Source: an uncultured Oscillibacter sp. (lineage in GTDB: Bacteria > Bacillota > Clostridia > Oscillospirales > Oscillospiraceae). Taken from it: a stretch of 34,623 nt of DNA. How positions within the stretch are numbered: position 1 is the first letter of the stretch; each line of letters starts with the position of its first letter. Location of the stretch: positions 1 to 34,623 of the forward strand of contig CAMNRF010000017.1 of the NCBI GenBank assembly GCA_946551795.1, written 5' to 3'. A program made the translations under genes and the position numbers. The notes under the pieces are model-generated. The model did no database searches and was not told the DNA's origin. It saw only the letters and a list, made by a program, of their open reading frames with translations. Below, one piece after another: positions 1 to 10,618 of this stretch.

Positions 1-17
1 TTTTATCATCTTTACAT

Positions 18-47
18 GAAAAAGTCTGCCATTTGGCAGACTTTTTC
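18..47. terminator. Bidirectional intrinsic terminator
   Basis: A perfect 13-bp stem (GAAAAAGTCTGCC and its complement) closes on an ATTT loop. The GC part of the stem is flanked by A5 on one side and T5 on the other, so it can end transcripts from both directions. It lies downstream of the minus-strand methyltransferase module. Confidence 0.75.
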
Positions 48-52
48 GACAG

Positions 53-88
53 GCTTAAGGTAGTCGAGTAAACTCGACTACCTTAAGC
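53..88. repeat. Near-perfect 36-bp palindrome
   Basis: Two 17-bp arms (left arm GCTTAAGGTAGTCGAGT) are exact reverse complements separated by only AA. There is no T-tract next to it. It sits between the stop of the small minus-strand gene and the intrinsic terminator, so it may be a 3' stabilising hairpin, a second terminator stem or a protein-binding palindrome. Confidence 0.7.
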
Positions 89-112
89 GTTTGATGCTAC
101 AATGTTCAAACA

Positions 113-496
113 TCAGAGGAGAGTGAACTGTACATCCTTGGCAGAAATAAACTCAACCAGAACTTTATCCCCAATTTTAGCCCCGCAAGAGATATACCAT
201 GGAGTAAAAGCTTTACAAGCACCACGGCCAATACCCTCAAACTGTTTAGCGTAAATGCCATCAGCGGTTCCATTTCCTGCTGCTTTAATCTTTATAGGGG
301 CAGAACCATCGGTAAAAGTGGCGTTGTACTGAGTACCACGATAAATGTCATACGCTCTAGCGTATTCTACTGGAATAGCTACATATGACTCACCTGGAAT
401 CACAGCTCTATTAGTAGGGGTACGAGGAGGTTGCACACCCCAACTAATGTGCGATGGTTGAATTGTAACGATATAGTGATCCCCAGCCTTTGGCAT
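113..496 (-). CDS. Small protein of the methyltransferase module, possibly B3-like DNA-binding
   Basis: This 127-residue soluble protein has no signal peptide or membrane segment. The start is well supported by AAGGAGGAGG just upstream of the ATG. Its pattern of short strands around a conserved-looking centre (AIPVEYARAYDIYRG) and its glycine-rich turns suggest a small beta-barrel of the kind used as B3-like or EcoRII-N-like DNA recognition domains in restriction enzymes. This is a visual impression, not a family match. It is the last gene after an XRE regulator and a C5 methyltransferase on the same strand, so it may be a restriction-related subunit or a remnant of one. No PD-(D/E)XK, HNH, GIY-YIG or PLD motif is visible. 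The function is unproven. Confidence 0.6.
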   Translation of the reverse strand: MPKAGDHYIVTIQPSHISWGVQPPRTPTNRAVIPGESYVAIPVEYARAYDIYRGTQYNATFTDGSAPIKIKAAGNGTADGIYAKQFEGIGRGACKAFTPWYISCGAKIGDKVLVEFISAKDVQFTLL

Positions 497-818
497 AACT
501 ACCTCCTCCTTAAATTAAGCATAAGAATTTATCTGCGTGAAAGCAAAACATCTCCAATAAGGCTATGTGAGCAATTTAAAGCACCATAATGCTCAATTGA
601 TTCTAACACATTTGGGATTATAATGCTAGAGGATTTTATTATGACTTTAATCTCTCGAGATTTTTGTCTCCATTGCACAACTAGTGAGACACAGAAACAT
701 TGATCGGCTAATGACTGATAACCCAAAAGTGTGAAGGGCAACAACTATATTTGAAACACCCCCATAGCAAAAATACAACTGCTCCCGCACTTAATATTAA
801 TGCAGAGGCATCTTTGCC
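497..818 (-). other. Gap with no convincing gene between methyltransferase and small protein
   Basis: This 322-bp AT-rich stretch has a 71-codon open frame (529-744, minus) and, in another frame directly after the methyltransferase stop, a hydrophobic peptide (ALILSAGAVVFLLWG). Neither has a ribosome-binding site or a recognisable family. The usual place of a restriction gene beside the methyltransferase makes a decayed gene plausible, but that is inference. Confidence 0.4.
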
Positions 819-1871
819 CTATTCTTCAATATTTGCAGGCATTGACTCATAGGAAATACCTGCAAATGTTTTCAAAATTGCTTCAAAAATAATCTTGGCG
901 CCTTCGCAAGGCACTGCCATGCCAATCTGCTTGCGAACGCTTTCTTTGCTTCCCTCAAACACAAAATCATCCCGAAAAGTTTGTAGTCTGGCCCTCTCTC
1001 GGTTGGTCAATGCACGGGGTTCAGACCAGTGATAGATATGAGTTCCGCCGCCGCCGCTTCCAGTAACAGTATATGCAGGTTTATCTGGATCAAGGCGTTT
1101 ATAAATCTGACTAATCTTTGCACCAGAAACATTCAGCTTTAAGCGATCAGGAAGTTCAGCTGTAAAGGCATTTTGGCCAGGTTTAATGTATCCAAGGCGC
1201 TCAATCACTGTTGCCGATTGTTTGGTAAGATCGTTATTGGGAGCATCAGGGGCAATAGGAGGAACTTCAATTGCTGTCTTACAAGTGTTATCCACTTTTG
1301 CATAAGGGGCGCTGGAAGGAATCTTAAATTCAACATTAATATTATCTCGAATGCCAACAATAATAATTCTGTGCCGCGCCTGGGGGATTCCATAAGTCTC
1401 AAATTTATATAGATTGGGATAAAGTTTATACCCTGCCGCTTTCATTTCGTCAAGTATCTTAGTAAAAGCCTTGCCATCGTTTGCATTTCTCAAACCACCA
1501 ACATTTTCAGCTAAAAACCACTGAGGTCTGTATAGTTTGAGTACCTTGATGCCATAAGAATACAAAGGCCCGTAAACACCATCCATGCCTTTTTGTTCAC
1601 CAACGACACTGTAGTCGTTGCATGGAAAACCAAATGCAAAGGCATCAATTGGACTCAGCTGGGTTAAATCAAATTTCCGCACATCAGCATGGTATACAGT
1701 GCCAGGCTGATCAGGACAGATATTGCGCCGATATGTTTGACATGTATTTTCATCATAGTCATTTGCCCAAGCGTGGATAATTTTGAAATTCGGATCTCCA
1801 ATATCCGCATGAGTTGCTCCCCATGCCAGACCACCTGGGCCGCAAAAGAGTTCTCCAAGCCTAAAAATCAT
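819..1871 (-). CDS. DNA (cytosine-5-)-methyltransferase
   Basis: This enzyme transfers a methyl group from S-adenosylmethionine to C5 of cytosine in a specific duplex DNA site. At 350 aa it has the usual C5-methylase motifs in order: motif I FCGPGG (residues 9-14), motif IV GFPCNDYS with catalytic Cys84, motif VI ENV (122-124), motif VIII QARHR (164-168), and motifs IX/X near the C-terminus (LQTFRDDF, IGMAVP). The chosen ATG follows AGGAAG and overlaps the end of the XRE gene by 11 bp, so the two are translationally coupled; longer upstream extensions of the frame run into the regulator and lack family similarity. The target-recognition region (about 175-260) gives no specificity I can name. 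No classical nuclease gene is adjacent, so it is either an orphan or the methylase of an atypical restriction-modification system. Confidence 0.93.
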   Translation of the reverse strand: MIFRLGELFCGPGGLAWGATHADIGDPNFKIIHAWANDYDENTCQTYRRNICPDQPGTVYHADVRKFDLTQLSPIDAFAFGFPCNDYSVVGEQKGMDGVYGPLYSYGIKVLKLYRPQWFLAENVGGLRNANDGKAFTKILDEMKAAGYKLYPNLYKFETYGIPQARHRIIIVGIRDNINVEFKIPSSAPYAKVDNTCKTAIEVPPIAPDAPNNDLTKQSATVIERLGYIKPGQNAFTAELPDRLKLNVSGAKISQIYKRLDPDKPAYTVTGSGGGGTHIYHWSEPRALTNRERARLQTFRDDFVFEGSKESVRKQIGMAVPCEGAKIIFEAILKTFAGISYESMPANIEE

Positions 1872-2202
1872 GCTTCGTTCTTCCTTTCGTGAACAAATCA
1901 ATCTGCGCTTGAATGAGGTTCCTTTCATCTTCGGTGAGCAGATCTGCATTTTGAAAGACCTGCTCATAGGAAGAGAGCGCCTCTTTATCCAGGTAACCTG
2001 CAATACAGTACAGCTCAATGAGATTAATATGATACAATTTAGACAGAGTCAGCAGAATATCTGGTGCTGGGTTTGAAGCATTTGTACCATTTTCAATTCG
2101 GCTGAGTTTTGAATCACTGATGCCGGTTTCTTTGTAGACATCTTTCAGGCTGAGTTTTTGGTGGATCCGATTTTTTTTCAAATATTCGCCTAAAGTGACC
2201 AT
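1861..2202 (-). CDS. XRE-family HTH transcriptional regulator
   Basis: This 113-residue DNA-binding protein has an N-terminal Cro/C1 helix-turn-helix at about residues 5-62 (LGEYLKKNR, LSLKDVYKETGISDSKLSRIENG) and a short helical C-terminal part. It is the first gene of the methyltransferase module, and its stop overlaps the methylase start. A ribosome site (AGAGGTGG) precedes the ATG. Two related palindromes lie at and above its promoter, as in autoregulated control (C) proteins of restriction-modification systems or SinR-like repressors. The likely role is timing methylase expression after entry into a new host. The family assignment is firm; the control-protein role is inference. Confidence 0.88.
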   Translation of the reverse strand: MVTLGEYLKKNRIHQKLSLKDVYKETGISDSKLSRIENGTNASNPAPDILLTLSKLYHINLIELYCIAGYLDKEALSSYEQVFQNADLLTEDERNLIQAQIDLFTKGRTKHDF

Positions 2203-2219
2203 ATTACCACCTCTGTTTT

Positions 2220-2248
2220 ACTATAACACAAATGCTGCGAAATTGCAA
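2220..2248 (-). promoter_or_regulatory. Sigma-A promoter of the XRE/methyltransferase operon
   Basis: Read on the minus strand: -35 TTGCAA, a 17-bp spacer and -10 TATAGT, placed about 20 bp upstream of the XRE start codon. Confidence 0.75.
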
Positions 2249-2250
2249 CG
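2233..2250. promoter_or_regulatory. Imperfect operator overlapping the -35 box
   Basis: TGCTGCGAAATTGCAACG is a degenerate copy (13 of 18 positions) of the perfect palindrome 30 bp away. It covers the -35 box and part of the spacer, so a bound repressor would block RNA polymerase. Confidence 0.6.
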
Positions 2251-2258
2251 ATTATTAT

Positions 2259-2284
2259 TTACTGCTGCAATTTTGCAGCAGTAA
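2259..2284. promoter_or_regulatory. Perfect operator-like palindrome
   Basis: Two 12-bp arms (TTACTGCTGCAA and its complement) flank a TT centre. It lies just upstream of the -35 box, three helical turns from the weaker copy, as expected for cooperative binding by a dimeric XRE regulator. Confidence 0.65.
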
Positions 2285-2435
2285 GCACGCAGTAATCCGG
2301 AAACAAAAATGCCATGATTCTGCCATTAAATTTCTCTACTTCTGATTATGTTTTCTACTAGACTTTTTCCCCCTCATTCGGTATTGTGTTGGTTGCCAAG
2401 GGTACCAAAAAATACTGAATACGGGAGGAAAAAGT

Positions 2436-3206
2436 ATGACCAGCATGAAAAAGCGCATTGCCGCCACATTGACGGCGACCATCCTTGCAACCGCACTCAC
2501 CGTTCCCGCCGCAGCGGGGGCCCCGGCCATCCGGGTGAGCAGTTACAAAGGCAGTACCCTGGAGGTGGGAGAGCGAAGCGGCCTCATCATCGGCCCCAGT
2601 GATACAGAGTATACTGTCACCTCCAGCAACCCGGAAACGGTAGCGGTCGAGCAGGTGTTGACCTTCTGGGTGGCTGTCGCCAAGGCGGAGGGGAGCGCGG
2701 AGATCACCGCCTCCAACAGCGCCGGGGAGTGTGGAAGTATGACGCTGACGGTCAGTTCCACTACTCCCATCATTCCAGAAACACCATCCGATGGAGACAG
2801 TACCAGCCTGACAGACAACTTGGAAATACGGCAGGAGATGATCCGCCTGATTAACCAGACCCGCAAGGCCAATGGAGTCTCGGAACTGCCTATCAGTGAG
2901 GCCCTGATGAACGCAGCCCAAGCCTGCTCCAACCAGCGGTACACCTGGCATCACTCTCCGGAGGAGAGCCAGGCCGCTGTCGACGCCGGCTATCCCTACG
3001 GTTTCGGCGATAACTTGACTGTGTTCACCGGCACAGCCGACGCCGCCCAACGCGCCGTCAACAACTGGATCAATTCTCCTGGTCACTTCCAGACCATGGT
3101 CGACCCGAGATGCGACTGTATAGGAGTGGGGGTGACTCAGTACGACGGAATTACTTACTGCTACATGTTTGTTGGGATACCCAACAGCGTCAACTTCTAT
3201 GCGTGA
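2436..3206 (+). CDS. Secreted CAP-domain (SCP/PR-1-like) protein with Ig-like domain
   Basis: This 256-residue exported protein has a signal peptide at 1-28 (MKKR charge, hydrophobic core, AAAGA cleavage region), a bacterial Ig-like (BIG2-type) domain at about 33-107, a short proline/serine linker, then a CAP domain at about 130-250. CAP landmarks are EMIRLINQTRKANG, the GDNL segment, NNWINSPGHF and the final GVGVTQYDGITYCYMFVG. The histidine-rich pocket is only partly kept (WHH, GHF rather than the usual GHR). Start chosen because GGGAGG lies 7 bp upstream of the first ATG. CAP proteins bind lipids or act at the envelope in various hosts; the bacterial role is mostly unknown. It stands alone between the methylase module and a minus-strand gene. 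Confidence 0.85.
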   Translation: MTSMKKRIAATLTATILATALTVPAAAGAPAIRVSSYKGSTLEVGERSGLIIGPSDTEYTVTSSNPETVAVEQVLTFWVAVAKAEGSAEITASNSAGECGSMTLTVSSTTPIIPETPSDGDSTSLTDNLEIRQEMIRLINQTRKANGVSELPISEALMNAAQACSNQRYTWHHSPEESQAAVDAGYPYGFGDNLTVFTGTADAAQRAVNNWINSPGHFQTMVDPRCDCIGVGVTQYDGITYCYMFVGIPNSVNFYA

Positions 3207-3224
3207 CAGGATAGCCAGTCAAAG

Positions 3225-3249
3225 GAGCAGACCGGAAAACGGTCTGCTC
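3225..3249. terminator. Hairpin between convergent genes
   Basis: GAGCAGACCG and its complement enclose a GAAAA loop between the convergent CAP and DUF6076-like genes. No long T-tract follows on either strand, so termination efficiency is uncertain. Confidence 0.5.
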
Positions 3250-3297
3250 TTGGCGTTCAGATCCTGCATCTCCATATCCAAAGAATAACCGCTCCGA

Positions 3298-4344
3298 TCA
3301 AAATGCGGCGAACCGCTTCCGCATTTCCTCGTCTGACAGTTTTCCCTGCTCTGCCAGATCAAGTACTTCCTGAACCTGGGACATGGTGGCGTTCCACTCA
3401 TCCCTGCTGATTTTCCCTCTCTGCTTTCTCGCCTTCATGCGGTTGTAAACTTTCCGGTATTCCACACCTGCTGGACTCAGCCCCGTGGGATGATTCGCCT
3501 TTCTGTGAGCGCCGACCTTGCGGCAGGTGCGCTCCGTCTCGCCGGGCGCGACATTATTGCAGTAGCAGGTGTTGTACGCGGCGGTCAGCAGGAAATAGCG
3601 TCCGCAATTGTGGCAGCGGCGGGGTGCGTTGCCTGCCATCAGACCCCGGTAGAAATCCGTGTAGAGAAAATGGGAGAGATAACGGAACTCCACTTTTTCC
3701 GCCAGGAGAACTTTTCCTGTCTCAGCAGTGTCTACCGTCGGGACAAAGCAGAGCTGGGCGGGAAAGCTCTGATTGAATTCCTGCTCCGGGAAAAACAGTT
3801 CCCCCGCGGCTGCCATGTCGGTAAAGTAGGCGGCGTAGGCTTCTGCGTATGCCTCGGCGCTGCGGCGGGAGAGCGGCTCGAAATAAAGCTCCAACATCCC
3901 GTCCAACTGTCCCCGGAAGTTTCGCAGGCTCGCTGCAAAGTATTCCAGTCCAGAGAGAAAATCCTCAAACATCCGGTGACCCTCGGAGTCAATGTCCAGA
4001 ACCTCCGACCACTTCGCCCGGTCAGACAGCAGGTCAGGAAACAAGCTCTGGGCAATCCCTGTGTCCAGGCGTAAACTCCGGTAGACCGGCAAATCAAAAA
4101 CCAGATCCCAGACAGCGTTGAGCCGTTCCTGCGCGGAACGGGCAGCGCTGTCTGTTTTTTCCTGGAGCAGCGTCCACACAGCGGACATGAGGTGATTAAC
4201 ACGCCGGTCGATCTCCGTCAGCACCTCGCCGTCCAGATTCAGAACATCCGTAGTGAGCTGGCCCAGCGGAAAAGCTGCTCCATCCAGAAACACAGTGTCT
4301 CCGGTAAAGAAAACCGAGAACCGGTCAAAGGTATTCTCTGCCAT
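3298..4344 (-). CDS. DUF6076-like protein with C-terminal zinc-ribbon-like motif
   Basis: This 348-residue soluble protein is of a type I associate with DUF6076, common in Clostridia accessory DNA and of unknown function. The N-terminal two thirds are helical. A cysteine cluster at about residues 245-280 (CHNCGRYF ... CYCNN ... TCRKVG, ending in HRK) looks like a metal-binding finger, followed by a short basic helical segment (YNRMKARKQRG) that resembles the finger-plus-helix tail of some DNA-binding proteins. Start chosen at MAENTFDRF because AGGAGGGG lies just upstream; the frame extends further but without a ribosome site. It has its own strong promoter and is divergent from the integrative-element genes. 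The family name is from memory and should be treated as likely, not certain. Confidence 0.65.
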   Translation of the reverse strand: MAENTFDRFSVFFTGDTVFLDGAAFPLGQLTTDVLNLDGEVLTEIDRRVNHLMSAVWTLLQEKTDSAARSAQERLNAVWDLVFDLPVYRSLRLDTGIAQSLFPDLLSDRAKWSEVLDIDSEGHRMFEDFLSGLEYFAASLRNFRGQLDGMLELYFEPLSRRSAEAYAEAYAAYFTDMAAAGELFFPEQEFNQSFPAQLCFVPTVDTAETGKVLLAEKVEFRYLSHFLYTDFYRGLMAGNAPRRCHNCGRYFLLTAAYNTCYCNNVAPGETERTCRKVGAHRKANHPTGLSPAGVEYRKVYNRMKARKQRGKISRDEWNATMSQVQEVLDLAEQGKLSDEEMRKRFAAF

Positions 4345-4371
4345 GCCGTCCCCTCCTGTACCCGATAGACT

Positions 4372-4398
4372 TTTGGCGTTTCCCCATCCTGCGCCAAA
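4372..4398 (-). promoter_or_regulatory. Leader hairpin of the DUF6076-like gene
   Basis: TTTGGCG and CGCCAAA pair across a 13-nt loop in the 5' leader, between promoter and ribosome site. It may regulate translation or mRNA stability; no known riboswitch is recognised. Confidence 0.4.
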
Positions 4399-4432
4399 TC
4401 TATTGTAGAGCGAATGATTTTGTGTTACCCTC

Positions 4433-4461
4433 ATCATATCAGAGCAACAAATAAAAGTCAA
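4433..4461 (-). promoter_or_regulatory. Sigma-A promoter of the DUF6076-like gene
   Basis: On the minus strand: -35 TTGACT, a 17-bp spacer and -10 TATGAT. This gives a leader of roughly 80 nt before the chosen start codon. Confidence 0.7.
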
Positions 4462-4483
4462 TCAGGTATAAAGGAGGTTCAAA

Positions 4484-4693
4484 ATGAAAGAGTCAAGCTA
4501 CAAGACCTACGACGAGCTGCCACTGTTCCTGAACGCGGAGACAGTGGCGAAGGTACTGGGCGTCTCGCCGTCCAGCGGGTACGAGCTGATGCATGAACCG
4601 GATTTCCCGGCACTGCGCATCGGAAACCGCATCGTGATTCCCAAGGAGGCGTTCATCCGTTGGGTGGAGGAACACACAGGAGGTACAGCGTGA
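4484..4693 (+). CDS. Excisionase-type helix-turn-helix protein
   Basis: This 69-residue protein contains a winged or MerR-like HTH_17 domain (FLNAETVAKVLGVSPSSGYELMHEPDFPALRIGNRIVIPKEAFIRWVEEHT, quoted here only in part by its landmarks: NAETVAKVLGVS, FPALRIG, IPKEAFIRW). This is the standard excisionase/AlpA-like fold used by integrative elements to bend att DNA or to act as a small regulator. Strong site AAAGGAGG precedes the ATG. Its stop overlaps the next gene's GTG start (GTGA), so the two are coupled. In this context it may serve as the recombination directionality factor for the downstream integrases, although its distance from them leaves a regulatory role open. Confidence 0.8.
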   Translation: MKESSYKTYDELPLFLNAETVAKVLGVSPSSGYELMHEPDFPALRIGNRIVIPKEAFIRWVEEHTGGTA

Positions 4694-5265
4694 AAAGATA
4701 CGATCTCTATTCCAAGCGAGACCCAGCCAAGAATTTTTCGCCCCTGCCCAATGAGGTCTTTTACCTCGGCCTGTCCTACGGCGCCATCGCGGTCTACGGT
4801 TACCTGATGCACATCGAGGACAGGAAGACCTTCCAGTCCTACGCCGGCTACAACACCATCGGCAGAGCGGTGAAGATGAGCGCCAACACCGTCCGTAAGT
4901 ATGTGCTGGAGCTGGAGGACAAGCACCTCATCCGCACGGAGCCCACCACCGTCATCACCCGAGACGGACGCAAGCGCAACGGAACGCTGCGTTACTACAT
5001 CCGTCCTATTCAGGAGGCGGTGGATTACTACTACGAACAGCAGCTCCTCCGGTTGGAAGTGGATACCGAGCGGCAGAAAGCGCAGGCCCGATTGTCGCGG
5101 CTGTGTGCGGCGCAGGAGCCGCTCCCGACCGAAGGGCATCCCATGACACCCCCAGCAGCAGAGCGCGATGTGTCGGGGCTGTGCGGCCCGGTGTGCGAAG
5201 TGGGTGGCCTCAGCGATTTTCAAAACAGTCCGGTGAACCGGGGGGTCGAAAAAAGTGCAGGATAA
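4690..5265 (+). CDS. Helix-turn-helix, replication-initiator-like protein
   Basis: This 191-residue protein starts at a GTG that overlaps the previous stop, with AGGAGG about 6 bp upstream. The N-terminal part (FSPLPNEVFYLGLSYGAIAVYGYLMH) followed by a winged-helix (YNTIGRAVKMSANTVRKYVLELEDKHLI) matches the HTH_36/RepA-N-like proteins found in Firmicute conjugative and mobilizable elements. The C-terminal third is proline-rich and low in predicted structure. It probably binds element DNA for replication or control of transfer genes. The fold is recognisable; whether it is a true replication initiator is not shown. Confidence 0.7.
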   Translation: MKRYDLYSKRDPAKNFSPLPNEVFYLGLSYGAIAVYGYLMHIEDRKTFQSYAGYNTIGRAVKMSANTVRKYVLELEDKHLIRTEPTTVITRDGRKRNGTLRYYIRPIQEAVDYYYEQQLLRLEVDTERQKAQARLSRLCAAQEPLPTEGHPMTPPAAERDVSGLCGPVCEVGGLSDFQNSPVNRGVEKSAG

Positions 5266-5518
5266 AAGCGTGGCGCCTTGCGCCGCCACGCCGGGTCACA
5301 CCGGCCCCGCAATGCGGGCCGGAGGCGGGAAACGCCGAGGCTTGGAACCGTTTGCGGTACATTTTGAGGGAAACTGTGCAAATCGCAGAATGGCATCAAA
5401 TTCCCCGGCGTGGCATTGGATATGGCATAGATAAGGGCACAAGCTCTACTGCCGCAAGAAATTTTCCGGCATTACAGATGGCAAAAACAAGATTTATATG
5501 AATTTGGAGGATAACATC
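5266..5518. other. GC-rich inverted-repeat cluster before the RHH gene
   Basis: No gene is supported here. The first 80 bp pack three overlapping inverted repeats: GCGTGGCG/CGCCACGC (5268-5291), GCCGG/CCGGC around GTCACA (5290-5305), and CCGGCCCCGC-AAT-GCGGGCCGG (5301-5322). It lies between a replication-type gene and a ribbon-helix-helix gene, where mobilizable elements often keep oriT, but no relaxase or nic site is recognised. Confidence 0.35.
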
Positions 5519-5923
5519 ATGGCAGAAGAAAAAGTGAGATTTCAGATGAGGATTGACCCGGACACAGACCGGAAGGTCAAAGCGGCGATGCCGCTGGCGA
5601 ACTGCCGCAGTCAAAATGAGTTCGTGGAAACAGCTCTGCGGTTCTACTGCGACTACCTGACAGCGGGAGACTGCACAGCCGTAGCGCCTATGTACCTGTC
5701 CGCTATTCGCGGTACGGTACAGGACACGGAGAACCGGATCTGCCGTCTGCTTTTCAAGCTGGCGGTGGAGCAGGACATGGTGATGAATGTGCTGGCGGCT
5801 GGGATGGAGATTCCCGATGAGCAGCTCAAGGCACTGCGGGGCCGGTGCGTCCAGAACGTGAAAAAGACCGGCGGCAGTGTCACGCTGGATGACGCGGTCC
5901 GCTACCAGAACGGCGGGCTGTAA
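5519..5923 (+). CDS. Ribbon-helix-helix-like DNA-binding protein
   Basis: This 134-residue protein begins MAEEKVRFQMRID; this ATG was chosen over one 21 bp upstream because GGAGG lies 8 bp before it. The first 45 residues follow a ribbon-helix-helix pattern: a beta strand (VRFQMRIDP), helix 1 (TDRKVKAAM), helix 2 starting SQNEFVETALRFY. The rest is helical and probably mediates oligomers. Similar proteins occur in Clostridia integrative elements and resemble relaxosome accessory (MobC-like) or partition-type regulators. No relaxase follows; the next genes are a small DUF6809-like protein and two integrases. The role is inferred from context. Confidence 0.65.
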   Translation: MAEEKVRFQMRIDPDTDRKVKAAMPLANCRSQNEFVETALRFYCDYLTAGDCTAVAPMYLSAIRGTVQDTENRICRLLFKLAVEQDMVMNVLAAGMEIPDEQLKALRGRCVQNVKKTGGSVTLDDAVRYQNGGL

Positions 5924-5986
5924 AAAAGTAGTAGCTATTCCCGACGAAGTGTGGTATGTGTTGGTGTTGCAAAGGAGGTAGTAGAC

Positions 5987-6283
5987 ATGAGAATGACTCT
6001 GGAGGATCTCTACTACGGCAACATCACACCCTGTGAGCAGCAGATGATACCTGGCTCAGAGCTGAAGCGAGCGATAGACCGTGTCGCTAAGTGCGAGGCG
6101 CAGCTGATGGAACTCCTCAACGAGGAGGGTCAGCAGGTTCTCACAAGGTTCATCCGCTCCCAGCATGAGATCAACAGCATCACGGCGACCGAGAATTTCA
6201 TCCTGGGCTTCCGGTTGGGCGTCAGGATCATGGCGGAGTGCATGGATGACAACGACGGTGATATTCGGACTGGAGGTGAATAA
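5987..6283 (+). CDS. DUF6809-like small protein
   Basis: This 98-residue protein starts MRMTLEDLYYGNITP; AAAGGAGG precedes this ATG. It is all-helical by appearance, with a conserved-looking N-terminal LYYGNI motif and a C-terminal FILGFRLGVRIMAE helix. I associate this pattern with DUF6809, a family of unknown function seen in Clostridia mobile elements; the name is from memory. It lies three bases before the first integrase, so it belongs to the same transcript and may be an accessory of integration or its regulation. Confidence 0.6.
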   Translation: MRMTLEDLYYGNITPCEQQMIPGSELKRAIDRVAKCEAQLMELLNEEGQQVLTRFIRSQHEINSITATENFILGFRLGVRIMAECMDDNDGDIRTGGE

Positions 6284-6286
6284 TAG

Positions 6287-7447
6287 ATGGCAAAGCGCAG
6301 GCCGTCCGGCGACGGTATGGTGCGCAGGCGTGAGGACGGACGCTGGGAGGGCCGTATCGTGGTGGGTCACAAGGAGAACGGCGAGTCCATCTTCCGCTAC
6401 GTCTCCGCCAAGAGCCAGAAGGCCCTGATGAAAAAGCTGCACCGGAGCATCGAGGAGTACCGGGATGTGGATCTGAGCGAGGACAGCCGGATGCCGCTGG
6501 GAGAATGGCTGGACCGCTGGCTGGAGGAGTATGTCTCGCCCACGGTGCGGGAGTCCACGCTGAGAGGCTACCGCCAGTACATCGAGTGCTACATCAAGCC
6601 CCGCCTGGGGGACAGGCCGGTGTGCAAGGTGACCGCCTCTGACGTGCAGGCCCTGTACCGGGAGGTGCAGAAGAACGGGCGCAAAACCGAACACCCTGAG
6701 TACGGGTACGCGCTCTCCGGTTCCACTATCCGCAGTCTCCACGGTGTGTTCCACCAGGCTATGGACGCGGCGGTGCGAGAGCGGCTCACGGCGAGGAATC
6801 CCACCGAGGGCGTCACGCTCCCCAAAAAGAAAGCCTCCGCCAAGCAGATTCTCAACGATGATCAGCTGGAGCGGTTCATGGAGGAGATCAAAAAGGATCC
6901 GGTCTGGCACGACTTCTTCTACACCGAGCTGACCACCGGGATGCGCCGGGGTGAAATCTGCGGCCTGATGTGGTCCGACTTCGACGGGAAGAAGGGGACG
7001 CTGACAGTGCGCCGGACGCTCCACCAGCGCAGGGGCGGCGGGCTGACCGCCGGCGAGACCAAGACGGGAAAGGGCCGGCGCACCATCACCCTGCCGCCCA
7101 GCACGGCCCAGCTGCTGCGGGAACGGAGGAAAGGCTCCTGCTCCCAGTGGATCTTCCCCAATCCTCTCCGCCCGGAGGAGCCGATCAATCCCGGCAGGGC
7201 CTACAGCCGCCTGAAGACCCTGCTGAAAAGCGCCGGTCTGCCCGGCATCCGGTTTCATGGTCTGCGCCACACCTTCGCCACTCACGCCCTGACCAGCGGC
7301 GTGGACGCCAAGACCCTCTCCGGTATCCTGGGTCACACCAGGGCGTCCTTCACCTTGGACACCTACACCCATGTCACCGGAGATATGCACCGCCGGGCGG
7401 CGGAGATCGTGGGCGGCTTTCTGGATGACATTATGGTGAGGGGGTGA
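6287..7447 (+). CDS. Tyrosine recombinase (site-specific integrase) 1
   Basis: At 386 aa this is a full-length Tn916-type tyrosine integrase that cuts and joins att sites through a phosphotyrosine. The N-terminal arm-binding region (about 7-55, GDGMVRRREDGRWEGRIVV) precedes a SAM-like core-binding domain (about 70-170) and the catalytic domain. Catalytic residues are visible: Arg220 in TTGMRRGE, a lysine in the TKTGKGRR hairpin, His324/Arg327 in HGLRHTF, His350 in LGH and Tyr360 in TLDTYTH. GGAGG lies 10 bp before the ATG. A second integrase begins four bases after this stop. The N-termini of the two enzymes are clearly related, so they are paralogues rather than a split gene. Whether both are needed for one reaction is not known. 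Confidence 0.92.
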   Translation: MAKRRPSGDGMVRRREDGRWEGRIVVGHKENGESIFRYVSAKSQKALMKKLHRSIEEYRDVDLSEDSRMPLGEWLDRWLEEYVSPTVRESTLRGYRQYIECYIKPRLGDRPVCKVTASDVQALYREVQKNGRKTEHPEYGYALSGSTIRSLHGVFHQAMDAAVRERLTARNPTEGVTLPKKKASAKQILNDDQLERFMEEIKKDPVWHDFFYTELTTGMRRGEICGLMWSDFDGKKGTLTVRRTLHQRRGGGLTAGETKTGKGRRTITLPPSTAQLLRERRKGSCSQWIFPNPLRPEEPINPGRAYSRLKTLLKSAGLPGIRFHGLRHTFATHALTSGVDAKTLSGILGHTRASFTLDTYTHVTGDMHRRAAEIVGGFLDDIMVRG

Positions 7448-7451
7448 GGGT

Positions 7452-8885
7452 ATGGCGAAGAAGCGGAAGAAGGGCGAGGGAACGCTCCGTCAGAGAAAGG
7501 ACGGCCGCTGGGAGGGCCGGGTGGTCATCGGCTACGATGACAGCGGCAATCCCAAGACGAAAAATGTGCTGGCCAAGAGCAAAAAGGAGTGCGCCGAGAA
7601 GCTGGAACAGCTGAAAGCGGCCCAGGGCGGCTCCGGGCCGGTGAAGGTCGGGGCGGAGATGCGGTTCGGGGACTGGCTGGACTACTGGTATCAGAATTGC
7701 TCCAAGCCGGCTCTGCGGCACACCACCCAGCTGAATTATGAGAACTGGATCTATCTCCACGCCATTCCGGGAGTGGGGGATATCCCGCTGAACAAGCTGT
7801 CCCAGTCCGACCTCCAGCAGTTCTTCACCGAGATGAAAAAGGGCGGGCGGCTCAACAATGTGGAGCGCCACGGCGCGGGGATGGCGGATCGCTCGGTGCG
7901 CAGTTGTCACGCGGTGTGTCAGATGGCGCTGGATCGGGCGGTAAAGGAGGGCCTCATCCGAACCAACCCGGCCATCGGCTGTAAGCTGCCGCCCCTGCGG
8001 GAGAAAGAGATGAAGATTCTGAGCCGGGAGGAGATCCAGCGGTTCTTGATCCAGGCCAAGGCGGAGGGAATGTACGAGCTGTTCCTCCTGGAGCTGACCA
8101 CCGGGATGCGCCGGGGTGAGCTGCTGGCCCTCCAATGGTCTGACCTGGATTTCAAGACTGGCAGACTGCGTATCAACAAGCAGGTGTATTCCGTCAACGG
8201 CAAGCTGGAGATCAACGAGCCGAAGACCAAGGCCGCCGTCCGTACCGTCATCCTGCCGCCCGCCATGGTGGAGCTGCTGGCGGAGTACAGGGCGCAGATT
8301 TTCTCGGAGTGGATGTTCCCCTCCCGCGTCAAGCCGGAGCAGCCTGTGGACCCTGGCTATGTCCGCAAGCGCCTGCAAGTCATCCTGGAGCGAGCGGGGT
8401 GCAAAAGGGTGAGGTTCCACGACCTCCGTCACACCTTTGCCACCATGTCCCTGGAGAACGGGATGGACGTGAAGACCTTGTCCGCCATCATCGGCCACGT
8501 CTCGTCGGCCACCACACTGAACATCTACACCCACGTCACCGACGAGATGCAGAGGAATGCGGCCCGGAACATCGACCAGGGCATTGCCGGGGCGGAGGTG
8601 GAGGAAGTGCCGGAACGCGAGGAAACCGCCCCGCCTGTGACCTTCACACCTTATCGGCCTGCCTACCGCAGACCGGGGACAGGGTGCATCAGCCAGATCA
8701 ACGACCACCTGTTTGAGGGCCGCTATTCTCCCAAGTGGATTGACGGCAAAAAACACGCCCGCAATATCTATGCCCATACCCGTGAGGAGTGTGAGGAAAA
8801 GCTGGCGGCGCTGATTGTCCAGATGAAGCGGGAGCTGGCGGAGCTGAAAGCGGCCCAGGCGACGGAGACGCCCTCCAGACATTGA
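7452..8885 (+). CDS. Tyrosine recombinase (site-specific integrase) 2 with extra C-terminal domain
   Basis: This 477-residue integrase has an intact catalytic set: Arg220 (TTGMRRGE), Lys258 or Lys260 (EPKTKAA), His323/Arg326 (FHDLRHTF), His349 (IIGHVSS) and Tyr359 (LNIYTHV). The usual domains end near residue 375, but the protein continues for about 100 residues. After a proline-rich linker, residues 409-455 repeat the pattern of residues 8-54: G-x-G start, EGR, a D-G turn, an alanine, then EC-EKL (N-terminal KKECAEKL, C-terminal REECEEKL). This looks like a second copy of the arm-type DNA-binding domain at the far end. It is the gene nearest the tRNA-Ala site, so it most likely drove the integration there. 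Confidence 0.92.
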   Translation: MAKKRKKGEGTLRQRKDGRWEGRVVIGYDDSGNPKTKNVLAKSKKECAEKLEQLKAAQGGSGPVKVGAEMRFGDWLDYWYQNCSKPALRHTTQLNYENWIYLHAIPGVGDIPLNKLSQSDLQQFFTEMKKGGRLNNVERHGAGMADRSVRSCHAVCQMALDRAVKEGLIRTNPAIGCKLPPLREKEMKILSREEIQRFLIQAKAEGMYELFLLELTTGMRRGELLALQWSDLDFKTGRLRINKQVYSVNGKLEINEPKTKAAVRTVILPPAMVELLAEYRAQIFSEWMFPSRVKPEQPVDPGYVRKRLQVILERAGCKRVRFHDLRHTFATMSLENGMDVKTLSAIIGHVSSATTLNIYTHVTDEMQRNAARNIDQGIAGAEVEEVPEREETAPPVTFTPYRPAYRRPGTGCISQINDHLFEGRYSPKWIDGKKHARNIYAHTREECEEKLAALIVQMKRELAELKAAQATETPSRH

Positions 8886-8956
8886 GCCGCCATATCCAAT
8901 GAATAGGGCGGTGGGCCAAAGTAATAGCCTGCCGCCCGAAAATTTTCTGAAACCCG

Positions 8957-8975
8957 TCTGTGGTATTTCTGTGGT
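8957..8975. repeat. Two TCTGTGGT direct repeats at 11-bp spacing
   Basis: TCTGTGGT occurs twice, starting 11 bp apart, between the integrase stop and the tRNA. Same-face direct repeats beside an integrase gene are typical of arm-type integrase binding sites, so this may be part of the element end. Confidence 0.45.
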
Positions 8976-8980
8976 CAAAA

Positions 8981-9012
8981 GAAAAATCACCCCGGTTTTT
9001 ACCGGGGTGATT
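8981..9012 (-). terminator. Intrinsic terminator of the tRNA-Ala transcript
   Basis: A 12-bp perfect stem (AATCACCCCGGT and its complement) with a TTTT loop sits just past the tRNA 3' end. Read on the minus strand it is followed by a run of T. It also faces the end of the plus-strand integrase gene. Confidence 0.8.
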
Positions 9013-9019
9013 CTCTATT

Positions 9020-9096
9020 TGGTGGACCTGAAGGGGATCGAACCCTCGAACCTCACGGATGCGAACCGTGCGCTCTCCCAGCTGAGCTACAGGCCC
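9020..9096 (-). tRNA. tRNA-Ala (anticodon CGC)
   Basis: The minus strand folds into a full cloverleaf with encoded CCA: acceptor GGGCCTG/CAGGTCC, D-arm GCTC/GAGC, anticodon stem CACGG/CCGTG around TTCGCAT (anticodon CGC), T-arm GAGGG/CCCTT around TTCGATC. The acceptor contains the G3-U70 pair that marks alanine tRNAs, which confirms identity. The variable loop is six bases, one more than usual. The gene abuts an integrase on one side and partial copies of its own 5' half on the other, so it is an integration target whose 3' half was probably rebuilt by the incoming element. Confidence 0.93.
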
Positions 9097-9227
9097 AAAT
9101 CGGCACTTTTTATGCGGAAAAAGTTGCGAAATTTGGATTTCTAAAATATTCGATTTTCGGGGAAAAGACCAACAAAACGGACAGGAAAACAGGGGACAGA
9201 AAATCGGGTCGGATGTGACTCGCTATG
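9058..9227. repeat. 170-bp tandem unit 1 (tRNA-Ala 5' half plus spacer)
   Basis: The unit starts in the anticodon arm of the intact tRNA (GGATGCGAACCG), runs through the tRNA 5' end and continues through a 130-bp spacer. The next unit has exactly the same 170-bp period. The two differ at seven positions by my count, all in the distal half of the spacer; the tRNA half and the first 40 bp of spacer are identical. Confidence 0.9.
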
Positions 9228-9397
9228 GATGCGAACCGTGCGCTCTCCCAGCTGAGCTACAGGCCCAAATCGGCACTTTTTATGCGGAAAAAGTTGCGAA
9301 ATTTGGATTTCCAAAATATGCGGTTTTCAGGGAAAAGACCAACAAATCGGACAGGAAAACAGGGAACAGAAAATCGGGTCGGATGTGTCTCGCTATG
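9228..9397. repeat. 170-bp tandem unit 2 (tRNA-Ala 5'-half scar plus spacer)
   Basis: This is a second copy of the 5' half of tRNA-Ala, identical to the functional gene from the anticodon loop to base 1, but with the 3' half replaced by spacer (GTGACTCGCTAT). It cannot make a tRNA. The spacer contains two near-repeats of GGACAGAAAA that could be recombinase arm sites. Confidence 0.9.
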
Positions 9398-9437
9398 GAT
9401 GCGAACCGAACGCTCTCCCAACTGAGCTACAGGCCCA
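9398..9437 (-). pseudogene. tRNA-Ala 5'-half fragment 3
   Basis: A third 5' half at the same 170-bp period. It differs from the others (GAACGCTCTCCCAACTGAG instead of GTGCGCTCTCCCAGCTGAG), so it is probably an older scar or the original host allele. After it the repeat spacer is lost and AT-rich DNA begins. Confidence 0.85.
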
Positions 9438-9512
9438 TGTTTTATTCATTTTTTGTAATTTTTTTGGGCGAAATGGTCCGTTCTGACTTCCTGTAAAAAA
9501 GGCCTGCTTAGC

Positions 9513-9547
9513 GGACCACTCGCTCTCCCAACTGAGTCACGAACTCA
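9513..9547 (-). pseudogene. Degenerate tRNA 5'-half fragment 4
   Basis: The core CGCTCTCCCAACTGAG is identical to fragment 3, but the acceptor and anticodon flanks are degraded or come from a different tRNA (TGAGTTCGTGACTCAG on the minus strand). It lies 110 bp beyond fragment 3. Confidence 0.6.
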
Positions 9548-9619
9548 TATTTTAATTTTTGTTGTTACCCAGATCAATGAATTGCTGATTTATGGTATTC
9601 AGCATAAAACCACTTTTTT

Positions 9620-9647
9620 ATTATAGCATAAATTTTCCCGTTGTAAA
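9620..9647 (-). promoter_or_regulatory. Promoter reading into the tRNA array
   Basis: On the minus strand: -35 TTTACA, 16-bp spacer, -10 TATAAT. It points toward the fragments and the intact tRNA-Ala. I see no better promoter inside the 170-bp spacer next to the intact gene, so this may be the original tRNA promoter, now about 520 bp from the mature 5' end. Confidence 0.65.
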
Positions 9648-10618
9648 GCATGTTTTTTTAAAACCGCAAAATTTTGTGTAGGAGTTACAATACAGATTGG
9701 ACATTCATAAAAAACAGAAGGATGAGGCCCGGTCAGTCAAATGTTGAGTGACTGCATATTTGCCGAGCCTGCAGGAGGCCGTATTCCTTCTGGACAAGAG
9801 CAAGACATGGCCTGCAGGCAATTCCGAATGAGGTGCGCAGAGAAATATGGCGTCATCTGTGCCGGCAGAGCCGAGCCGGTCATATTCGCGGGCCCGCCGG
9901 GACGGGAGGGCCTGATTGTGTTATGGCATCGTTTGAAAACGCGGCCGCACCTATCGCCCTAAGAGCCTGTTCCGTGTTATACGTGAGCCGGGTACGTTCC
10001 AGCAGAAAGAGAAAAGGGCCTGTATTCCGTAATCCTCTGAAGTGATGAGTCCGCAGGAGAATCCGTGTGGAATGCATTCAAACCGGCGGCTTTGGGTTTA
10101 CCAGCTGTTTTCCGGCAACAGGCGGGACGGCATAACCCTGTTTGAGAAAGCTGTTGCCGGTCTGGGGGCCGCCGTGGACTGATTCAACCGTATGCTTTAA
10201 GACGCAGCGGCACAGTGGAGCGTGGTCACAGGGAGGACCAGAAATGTTCGATTCTCTCCGTCCGTTTTTCTCCCTGCCTGATTTTGTCAGGCGGCTTGCT
10301 GTTCAGGCACACCTCTCCACCGGCCTTTCCGGTGAGGCGCCCCTTTCATTGACGACTTCGTCCCATACGTTTGACGGCCCTGTACCGGCCGCCTGCCGTG
10401 ACAGAGCCAGAACAGGCTCCCGGGCCCTGTGCCGCCCGGGATATGTCCTGCCGTCACCGGCAGCGGATTCCGCAGCAGGGAGTCCCAGATCAGGGCGTTG
10501 AAATCCGCGCCGGCCTCCGCCGGAGACATCTCCACGACGGGCAGCTGCGTGTTTTCCTTATTCCGGACCGCCGCGGGGATGCCATGCCATGGATTTTCCC
10601 AGATGTGAGCTCTCCGTG
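9648..10618. other. About 970 bp without a supported gene
   Basis: No open frame here has a ribosome site plus a recognisable family. A small inverted repeat (CAGTCA/TGACTG, 9734-9754) is present. On the minus strand directly after the kinase gene, one frame reads HGIPAAVRNKENTQLPVVEM and continues SPAEAGADFNALIWDSLL, which has protein-like composition but no start codon and soon turns into low-quality sequence. The stretch looks like decayed coding DNA at the edge of the integration hot spot. Confidence 0.45.

Follow-up and report, generated by a model that had tools for sequence, protein, structure and literature searches.

How does a single tRNA gene come to be accompanied by several copies of a tRNA 5′ half, spaced at a regular interval? 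We asked this of a tRNA-Ala(CGC) gene of an uncultured Oscillibacter sp. (GenBank assembly GCA_946551795.1), which lies on contig CAMNRF010000017.1, the whole of which, 34,623 bp, is the window analyzed here. An earlier note on this DNA had described an array with a 170-bp period at a tRNA-Ala and had offered two histories for it, repeated visits of integrating elements to one tRNA or excisions that leave a minimal unit behind. The array of tRNA 5′ halves and 170-bp repeats is confirmed. On comparison with relatives, we consider it likely that the mechanism in this family, which includes gut bacteria, is a serial stacking of displaced 5′ halves, made by islands that supply a new tRNA gene where they insert instead of repairing the old one.

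The intact tRNA-Ala(CGC) gene occupies positions 9020..9096 and is the only tRNA in the window (ARAGORN; Rfam RF00005, 58.2 bits). Because it lies on the minus strand, the additional halves stand upstream of it and not after it, as the note had placed them. Tandem Repeats Finder reports a sole array in the window, with a period of 170, 2.2 copies and a score of 692. Unit 1 (9057..9226, minus strand) comprises a short core, the 5′ half of the intact tRNA and a 129-bp spacer with the end CTATGG/ATGCGAA, and this 170-bp repeat has homologous single units in relatives. Unit 2 (9227..9396, minus strand) consists of the core, a displaced 5′ half without any difference from the one in the intact tRNA, and a spacer; it is 96% identical to unit 1, and the seven differences (from 9142 to 9218) all fall in the spacer, just as the note had stated. 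The note had also counted three further 5′ halves, and the 41-nucleotide half does recur at 9227 (100% identity), 9397 (93%) and 9507-9547 (63%), but the last two are not units. The half at 9397..9437 (minus strand) is the outermost, displaced half of the host, the same as in the unoccupied tRNAs of the relatives G080 and G071; since it is the host's own 5′ half and is followed by host sequence shared with the unit-free G080 (88.7% identity over the 97 bp outside it), it is not the start of a third unit. The half at 9507..9547 (minus strand) is degenerate, out of register and an older relic of another kind, and G080 and G076 have a similar relic in the corresponding position.

All of the halves break in the anticodon arm, as the note had it, and the exact common core is narrower, consisting of the 7-nucleotide anticodon loop ATGCGAA and one neighboring base. 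This core lies at the junction of the two units (9229..9235) and likewise, on the plus strand, at 9059-9065 and 9399-9405, and it is common to the left ends of islands and the right ends of units. Reading along with the tRNA, one meets in turn a promoter-like site, the degenerate half, the host half, a spacer, a half, a spacer, the intact tRNA and a terminator-like hairpin. The promoter-like site (TTTACA-16-TATAAT, 9620..9647, minus strand), with 11/12 matches and an extended TG, lies upstream of all the halves and is the only site above 9/12 within 8900-9800, and the hairpin of 12 pairs (8985..9012, minus strand; the tool scored it on the plus strand) lies just past the tRNA 3′ end.

At least 72 of the 86 genomes of the genus, its own included, match the array region, mostly through the tRNA itself, and at least 11 of the 86 have spacer-bearing matches of the window's unit family. 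The exact unit-junction pattern occurs in 19 stretches of the GTDB collection, 8 of which are contigs of genomes already found. After a sequence check had removed six second copies of the same genomes, 28 loci were reduced to 22 genomes with 1 to 7 units: seven in Flintibacter muris DSM 110149, three in Oscillibacter sp. 1-3 and in G483, two in the window, G076 and G484, and one in sixteen genomes. These counts are minima, as several arrays run off their contigs. A slightly looser pattern matched 15 of 400 sampled genomes of the family, seven of them only as ATATGG with one mismatch, and these seven were left out of the counts. The unit number, which the note had proposed to compare among relatives, varies from 0 to 7; the array differs among relatives, and islands with recombinase genes adjoin it, so that neither of the two findings that the note had named as refuting applies. 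We rejected chance or an artifact of a single draft assembly, given that the isolates Oscillibacter sp. 1-3 and F. muris DSM 110149 have the same form of array; both recombinase genes are present in Oscillibacter sp. 1-3.

Among these genomes the outermost half and everything beyond it vary, while the inner halves, each succeeded by a conserved spacer, fall into few types. Comparison of relatives places the left end of the island at ATGCGAA/AAGATT and its right end at CTATGG/ATGCGAA. The left ends of relatives begin with a tRNA 3′ half, followed by ATGCGAA and then by AAGATT and a conserved left end, which is where the matching 3′ half that the note had proposed to look for was found. The distance from this stranded 3′ half, or stub, to the array is 26.5 kb in G008, 18 kb in G079 and 68 kb in G049, each on one contig. 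An intact tRNA gene at one end and a tRNA gene fragment at the other were observed on one contig in G008 and G049; the window is uninformative in this respect, as its contig ends inside the island. The unit-free G080 shows both flanks of an unoccupied site, its left flank being common to the left junction of G048 (97% over the nearest 67 bp) and to G481 and its right flank being the one shared with the window. These left ends with their stranded halves and this unoccupied relative bear out the idea of repeated visits of elements to one tRNA.

To which gene does the stub belong? In all five testable genomes it pairs with 5′ half number 2 at 7/7 positions of the acceptor stem and 5/5 of the anticodon stem. 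With half 1, the resident one, it pairs at just 6/7 and 3/5 positions in G037 and G049 (in G037 the resident 3′ half is itself off the contig). Because the stub mismatches the resident half and pairs with the next one in these two genomes, it appears that the two halves of the old gene were moved apart, to opposite sides. The unsplit tRNA of G071 is recovered exactly when the left stub of G049 is joined to the outermost 5′ half on the same contig. Half 1 and half 2 are of one type in G008 and F. muris, so that these genomes do not discriminate between the two. The stub of G008 pairs with each of halves 3 and 4 at only 6/7 acceptor and 2/5 anticodon stem positions and is therefore not that of the host. 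It bears an island-type terminator, a match to the hairpin of the window, which in this genome adjoins both the island tRNA and the stranded 3′ half, and a damaged int2 recombinase gene lies 3.3 kb beyond; a second complete island was not seen there, and the two features are as would be expected for an older island in tandem. G048 (altered core), G070 (degenerate stub) and G079 (outer half cut short) were left out of the stub test.

The intact tRNAs tell the same story from the other side of the split. In all 14 of the 22 genomes in which the intact tRNA is visible, its two halves pair at 7/7 acceptor and 5/5 anticodon stem positions, although the outermost half varies by genome. The window is one such case, and the 3′ half of its tRNA is unlike the 3′ half of the unoccupied tRNAs of G080 and G071; we read this gene as a complete tRNA probably brought by the island. 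Repair of the split gene by a 3′ fragment alone, as in the Islander class, was considered and rejected: the halves of the intact tRNA belong together, and the stub with the outermost half makes up another tRNA (G049 and G037). In the ordinary Islander case the attP holds a fragment of the tRNA gene (available part of PMC4383910). The attP deduced here from integrated forms is not a fragment that restores the split gene.

We propose that islands insert successively into the anticodon loop of tRNA-Ala(CGC). As the comparison of relatives shows, an island carries a complete tRNA-Ala on its recombinase side and, beyond it, a right arm of ∼129 bp, so that the resident tRNA is split permanently on insertion. 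The resident 3′ half is left at the left end of the island, and the resident 5′ half with its promoter at the right end, from where the promoter may read through the displaced half into the island's tRNA, which would replace the old one. The recombinases int1 and/or int2 would catalyze the insertion. If the next island targets the anticodon loop of the newest tRNA, each arrival would add one 170-bp unit adjoining the intact tRNA, and the oldest half, that of the host, would lie farthest from it. A unit would thus be the right arm of one island together with the 5′ half of that island's tRNA, and units can persist after the islands that brought them are lost. In the window, the newest island would have contributed the spacer of unit 1 as its right arm. 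Comparison with relatives gives good support to one complete insertion of an island, and unit 2 is probably a second arrival.

The stepwise build that the note had considered is seen best in F. muris, whose seven units, from newest to oldest, are of tRNA types A, A, B, A, A, A and B and stand on a third type. Read from the sequence, this order would require at least four switches of tRNA type, each with a new 3′ half as well. Spacers were compared for 33 of the 35 units, two that are cut by contig ends being omitted. For 12 of the 18 units in multi-unit arrays, the nearest spacer lies in another genome, and for 6 it lies in their own array, ties being counted as own. Homogenization, which the note had offered as the alternative to a stepwise build, is not needed.

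Several results weigh against serial island arrival. Both units of the window are of type B, and unit 2 could therefore be a local duplication. The left end was not found in the window's own genome (86% complete), and the contig begins inside the island. The stub and the array are on separate contigs in three of the five genomes of the stub test (G037, G477 and G478), and selection for a working tRNA could by itself make the halves of the intact gene match. The predicted circle junction (CTATGG-ATGCGAA-AAGATT) is absent from viral contigs and has no exact match in the 86 genomes of the genus, where four matches with one mismatch were found. Finally, neither int2 (r = 0.008, P = 0.45, n = 9) nor int1 (r = 0.14, P = 0.22, n = 6) covaries with the newest spacer, and for the terminator together with the 3′ half covariation is not clear (r = 0.34, P = 0.11). 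The left end does covary with this spacer (r = 0.58, P = 0.023, n = 7), in a set of eight such tests of which two fell below 0.05, uncorrected. A tight linkage of spacer and int2 was thus a candidate that the covariation test did not bear out. As the newest spacer does not covary with the recombinase genes, either the islands are mosaic or the units move apart from those genes.

The last possibility leads to a broader reading, which we regard as doubtful but worth stating, namely, that the recombinases treat each 5′ half and arm as a cassette while also moving whole islands. The array would then be a shuffled, integron-like register with gain, exchange and loss between islands and species. This would explain why the newest spacers track left ends and not int2, and why seven units in F. 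muris stand beside a mere relic of int2. An integron-like cassette array is similar in form; the switches of the whole tRNA type speak against it, and the missing covariation with int2 leaves room for it.

Serial island arrival also has to be weighed against local tandem duplication, in which one island with one unit was multiplied by unequal crossing-over or slippage between the 41-bp halves. The exact 170-bp register and the 41-bp identity between units 1 and 2 of the window fit such a process, and in G484 and for units 1 and 4 of F. muris the nearest relative does lie within the same array. We nevertheless find it unlikely. Besides the 12 units whose nearest spacer is in another genome, unit 6 of F. 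muris is 99.2% identical to a unit of G081 and at most 97.7% identical to units of its own array, two units of G483 share just 77.9% identity, and the spacer of unit 2 in the window is slightly closer to a unit of G070, its nearest (95.3%), than to unit 1 (94.6%). Duplication alone would not be expected to yield this cross-genome pattern together with the mixture of two tRNA types in F. muris.

A third explanation takes each 170-bp unit for a small cassette (core, 5′ half, spacer and core) that is mobile in its own right, with recombinases supplied from elsewhere and arrays growing without whole islands. The lack of covariation between spacers and int2 agrees with this. So do F. muris, in which 29 kb on the 3′ side of the tRNA yielded only a 152-amino-acid relic of int2, and G481, which has a unit but no recombinase gene in the 6 kb on the 3′ side (and no int1 or int2 match in 7.5 kb altogether). 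Such a cassette would alter the 5′ half alone, yet all 14 visible tRNAs have matching halves; it would also have to account for the four or more type switches in F. muris and for the covariation of the left end with the newest spacer. We therefore consider it quite improbable.

More improbable still is inexact excision, in which recombination of the left core with the core in the island tRNA removes the body of the island and keeps the 5′ half and spacer. The note's second history, an excision that leaves a minimal unit, fits only G481, in which the host left flank is directly followed by the intact tRNA and one unit. Even there a simple excision scar was rejected, because the 3′ half is of the island type and not the one that fits the outermost 5′ half. 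Most loci with enough sequence retain recombinase genes (full int2 at 9 of the 22, the remainder being mostly contig edges or short loci). In the ordinary case a unit would be an island end and not the residue of an excision, because the 5′ half that is repeated comes from an island equipped with a complete tRNA of its own.

A selected role of the repeated halves in the tRNA leader, such as decoys or processing, is barely credible: the halves lie within the predicted transcript and compete with the acceptor stem of the tRNA in equilibrium folding, but 37 of 50 further tRNA-Ala instances have no extra halves, and such folding disregards cotranscriptional folding and RNase P. In that folding (9020-9619, minus strand), acceptor-stem pairing fell from 0.99 for the tRNA alone to 0.34 with the spacer and was ∼0 with one upstream half and 0.38 with the whole leader.

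A phage origin was rejected, the unit and left-end patterns having no match in viral contigs. The best match to a phage record, MT837775.1, was set aside too, as the match was due to the tRNA itself and the record has no unit. This record, named Bacteriophage sp., ends in a tRNA-Ala with a chromosome-like flank and may be bacterial sequence; the flank may correspond to a bacterial signal recognition particle RNA gene.

Judged from relatives, positions 1..9398 of the window would be the right part of the island, the left end lying outside the contig. Two tyrosine recombinase genes are found inside it, as in tRNA-targeting islands: int1 (6287..7447, plus strand, 386 amino acids; Pfam Phage_integrase, 9.7e-27; phrog_1, 5.4e-78) and int2 (7452..8885, plus strand, 477 amino acids; Pfam Phage_integrase, 6.8e-29; phrog_1, 2e-81). 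Together (6287-8885) they lie on the 3′ side of the tRNA and point toward it; they adjoin, are related to each other and are kept as a pair in relatives. A DUF6809 protein adjoins int1 (5951..6283, plus strand; Pfam, 1.5e-27), preceded by a small protein without a Pfam match (5498..5923, plus strand) that is kept adjoining int1 in G070 and G008. The island part further encodes a helix-turn-helix protein with a weak DnaD-like character (4660..5265, plus strand; HTH_36, 3.1e-4, below its own cutoff; phrog_186, 6.2e-6), a DUF6076 protein (3298..4461, minus strand; Pfam, 1.5e-52), a CAP-domain protein (2436..3206, plus strand; Pfam, 1.2e-15) and, as cargo, a C5 cytosine methyltransferase (819..2018, minus strand; Pfam, 1.5e-66; PADLOC MTase_II, 2.4e-112). 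Relatives carry, among other cargo, genes for type I and type II restriction-modification and for Ssp/Pbe phosphorothioation. No relaxase or transfer genes were found among 10 proteins of the window, which holds part of the island only, or among 10 cargo proteins of relatives, which were scanned in part.

Are such stacks confined to these islands? Of the 50 further tRNA-Ala instances, which were taken from the best region matches and are not random (five of the 50 loci lacked a tRNA-Ala call), 13 are accompanied by additional 5′ halves of other kinds. On contig C5 of G007, three 103-bp 5′-half units stand upstream of a tRNA-Ala(CGC), and a gene for a large serine recombinase (Resolvase and Recombinase domains) lies ∼45 bp from the 3′ side of the tRNA. 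The available part of PMC4383910 states that tyrosine recombinases are the only kind known to target tRNA genes. The halves of other kinds and the units beside the serine recombinase suggest that more than one kind of element may leave 5′-half stacks. Yet another kind, two 5′ halves spaced 121 bp, stands upstream of a tRNA-Ala(CGC) on contig C32 of G030. On contig C4 of G073 (9350-10260), at least three kinds of 5′-half units, one of the window's family, occur at one tRNA. On contig C15 of G043, the tRNA-Ala next to a distant int1/int2 pair (67% protein identity) has a unit whose spacer is different.

Searches aimed at this arrangement in an open-access library gave no description of such 5′-half stacks. 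Tandem islands with 3′-end repeats and elements of the tRNA 5′ end are already known; what appears to be new is that islands replace the tRNA and leave both fragments of each predecessor. With the Islander class, as presented in the available part of PMC4383910, the islands share tyrosine recombinases beside the tRNA, crossover in the anticodon loop, a tRNA fragment at the far end and tandem arrays; they differ in carrying a complete tRNA and in leaving both fragments of the old gene, one on each side. The tandem ssrA islands of Dehalococcoides likewise show serial insertion at one structural RNA gene, a row of repeats and some segments without an integration module, but there, in the available text of PMC3146451, repeats of 20 bp from the 3′ end lie between the island bodies, and a serine recombinase of CcrB-like type is present, whereas in the present arrays 5′ halves follow one another every 170 bp and the island bodies lie across the tRNA. 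The same text names accretion and cis-mobilizable elements, att-flanked pieces without recombinase genes beside an island; the present units share these features but are of 170 bp, have no gene except the tRNA half and are of putative mobility. Recombination with the 5′ part of the tRNA gene, with upstream displacement of a 5′ fragment, is also known from a rarer group of elements (Zhao and Williams 2002, as cited in the available part of PMC6563490). They are described as targeting the 5′-distal region, while in the present islands the recombinase genes are on the 3′ side and the 3′ fragment is displaced too. Tycheposons share a tyrosine recombinase and tRNA at the border and varied cargo; they occupy other hosts, and a 5′-half stack is not mentioned in the available portion of PMC10872708.

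Ordinary islands repair their target tRNA and leave one fragment, whereas the present islands appear to replace it and to leave both fragments of each predecessor. The packed 5′ halves would therefore amount to a brief record that keeps past arrivals in their order and is readable from a single amplicon. As this record can outlast the islands, one could measure across strains how fast and in what order a site is invaded, and, given that the cargo of relatives includes restriction-modification and phosphorothioation genes, it may show the turnover of antiphage defense. The tRNA leader would lengthen by 170 nucleotides with each event, which makes these loci a natural test of tRNA processing.
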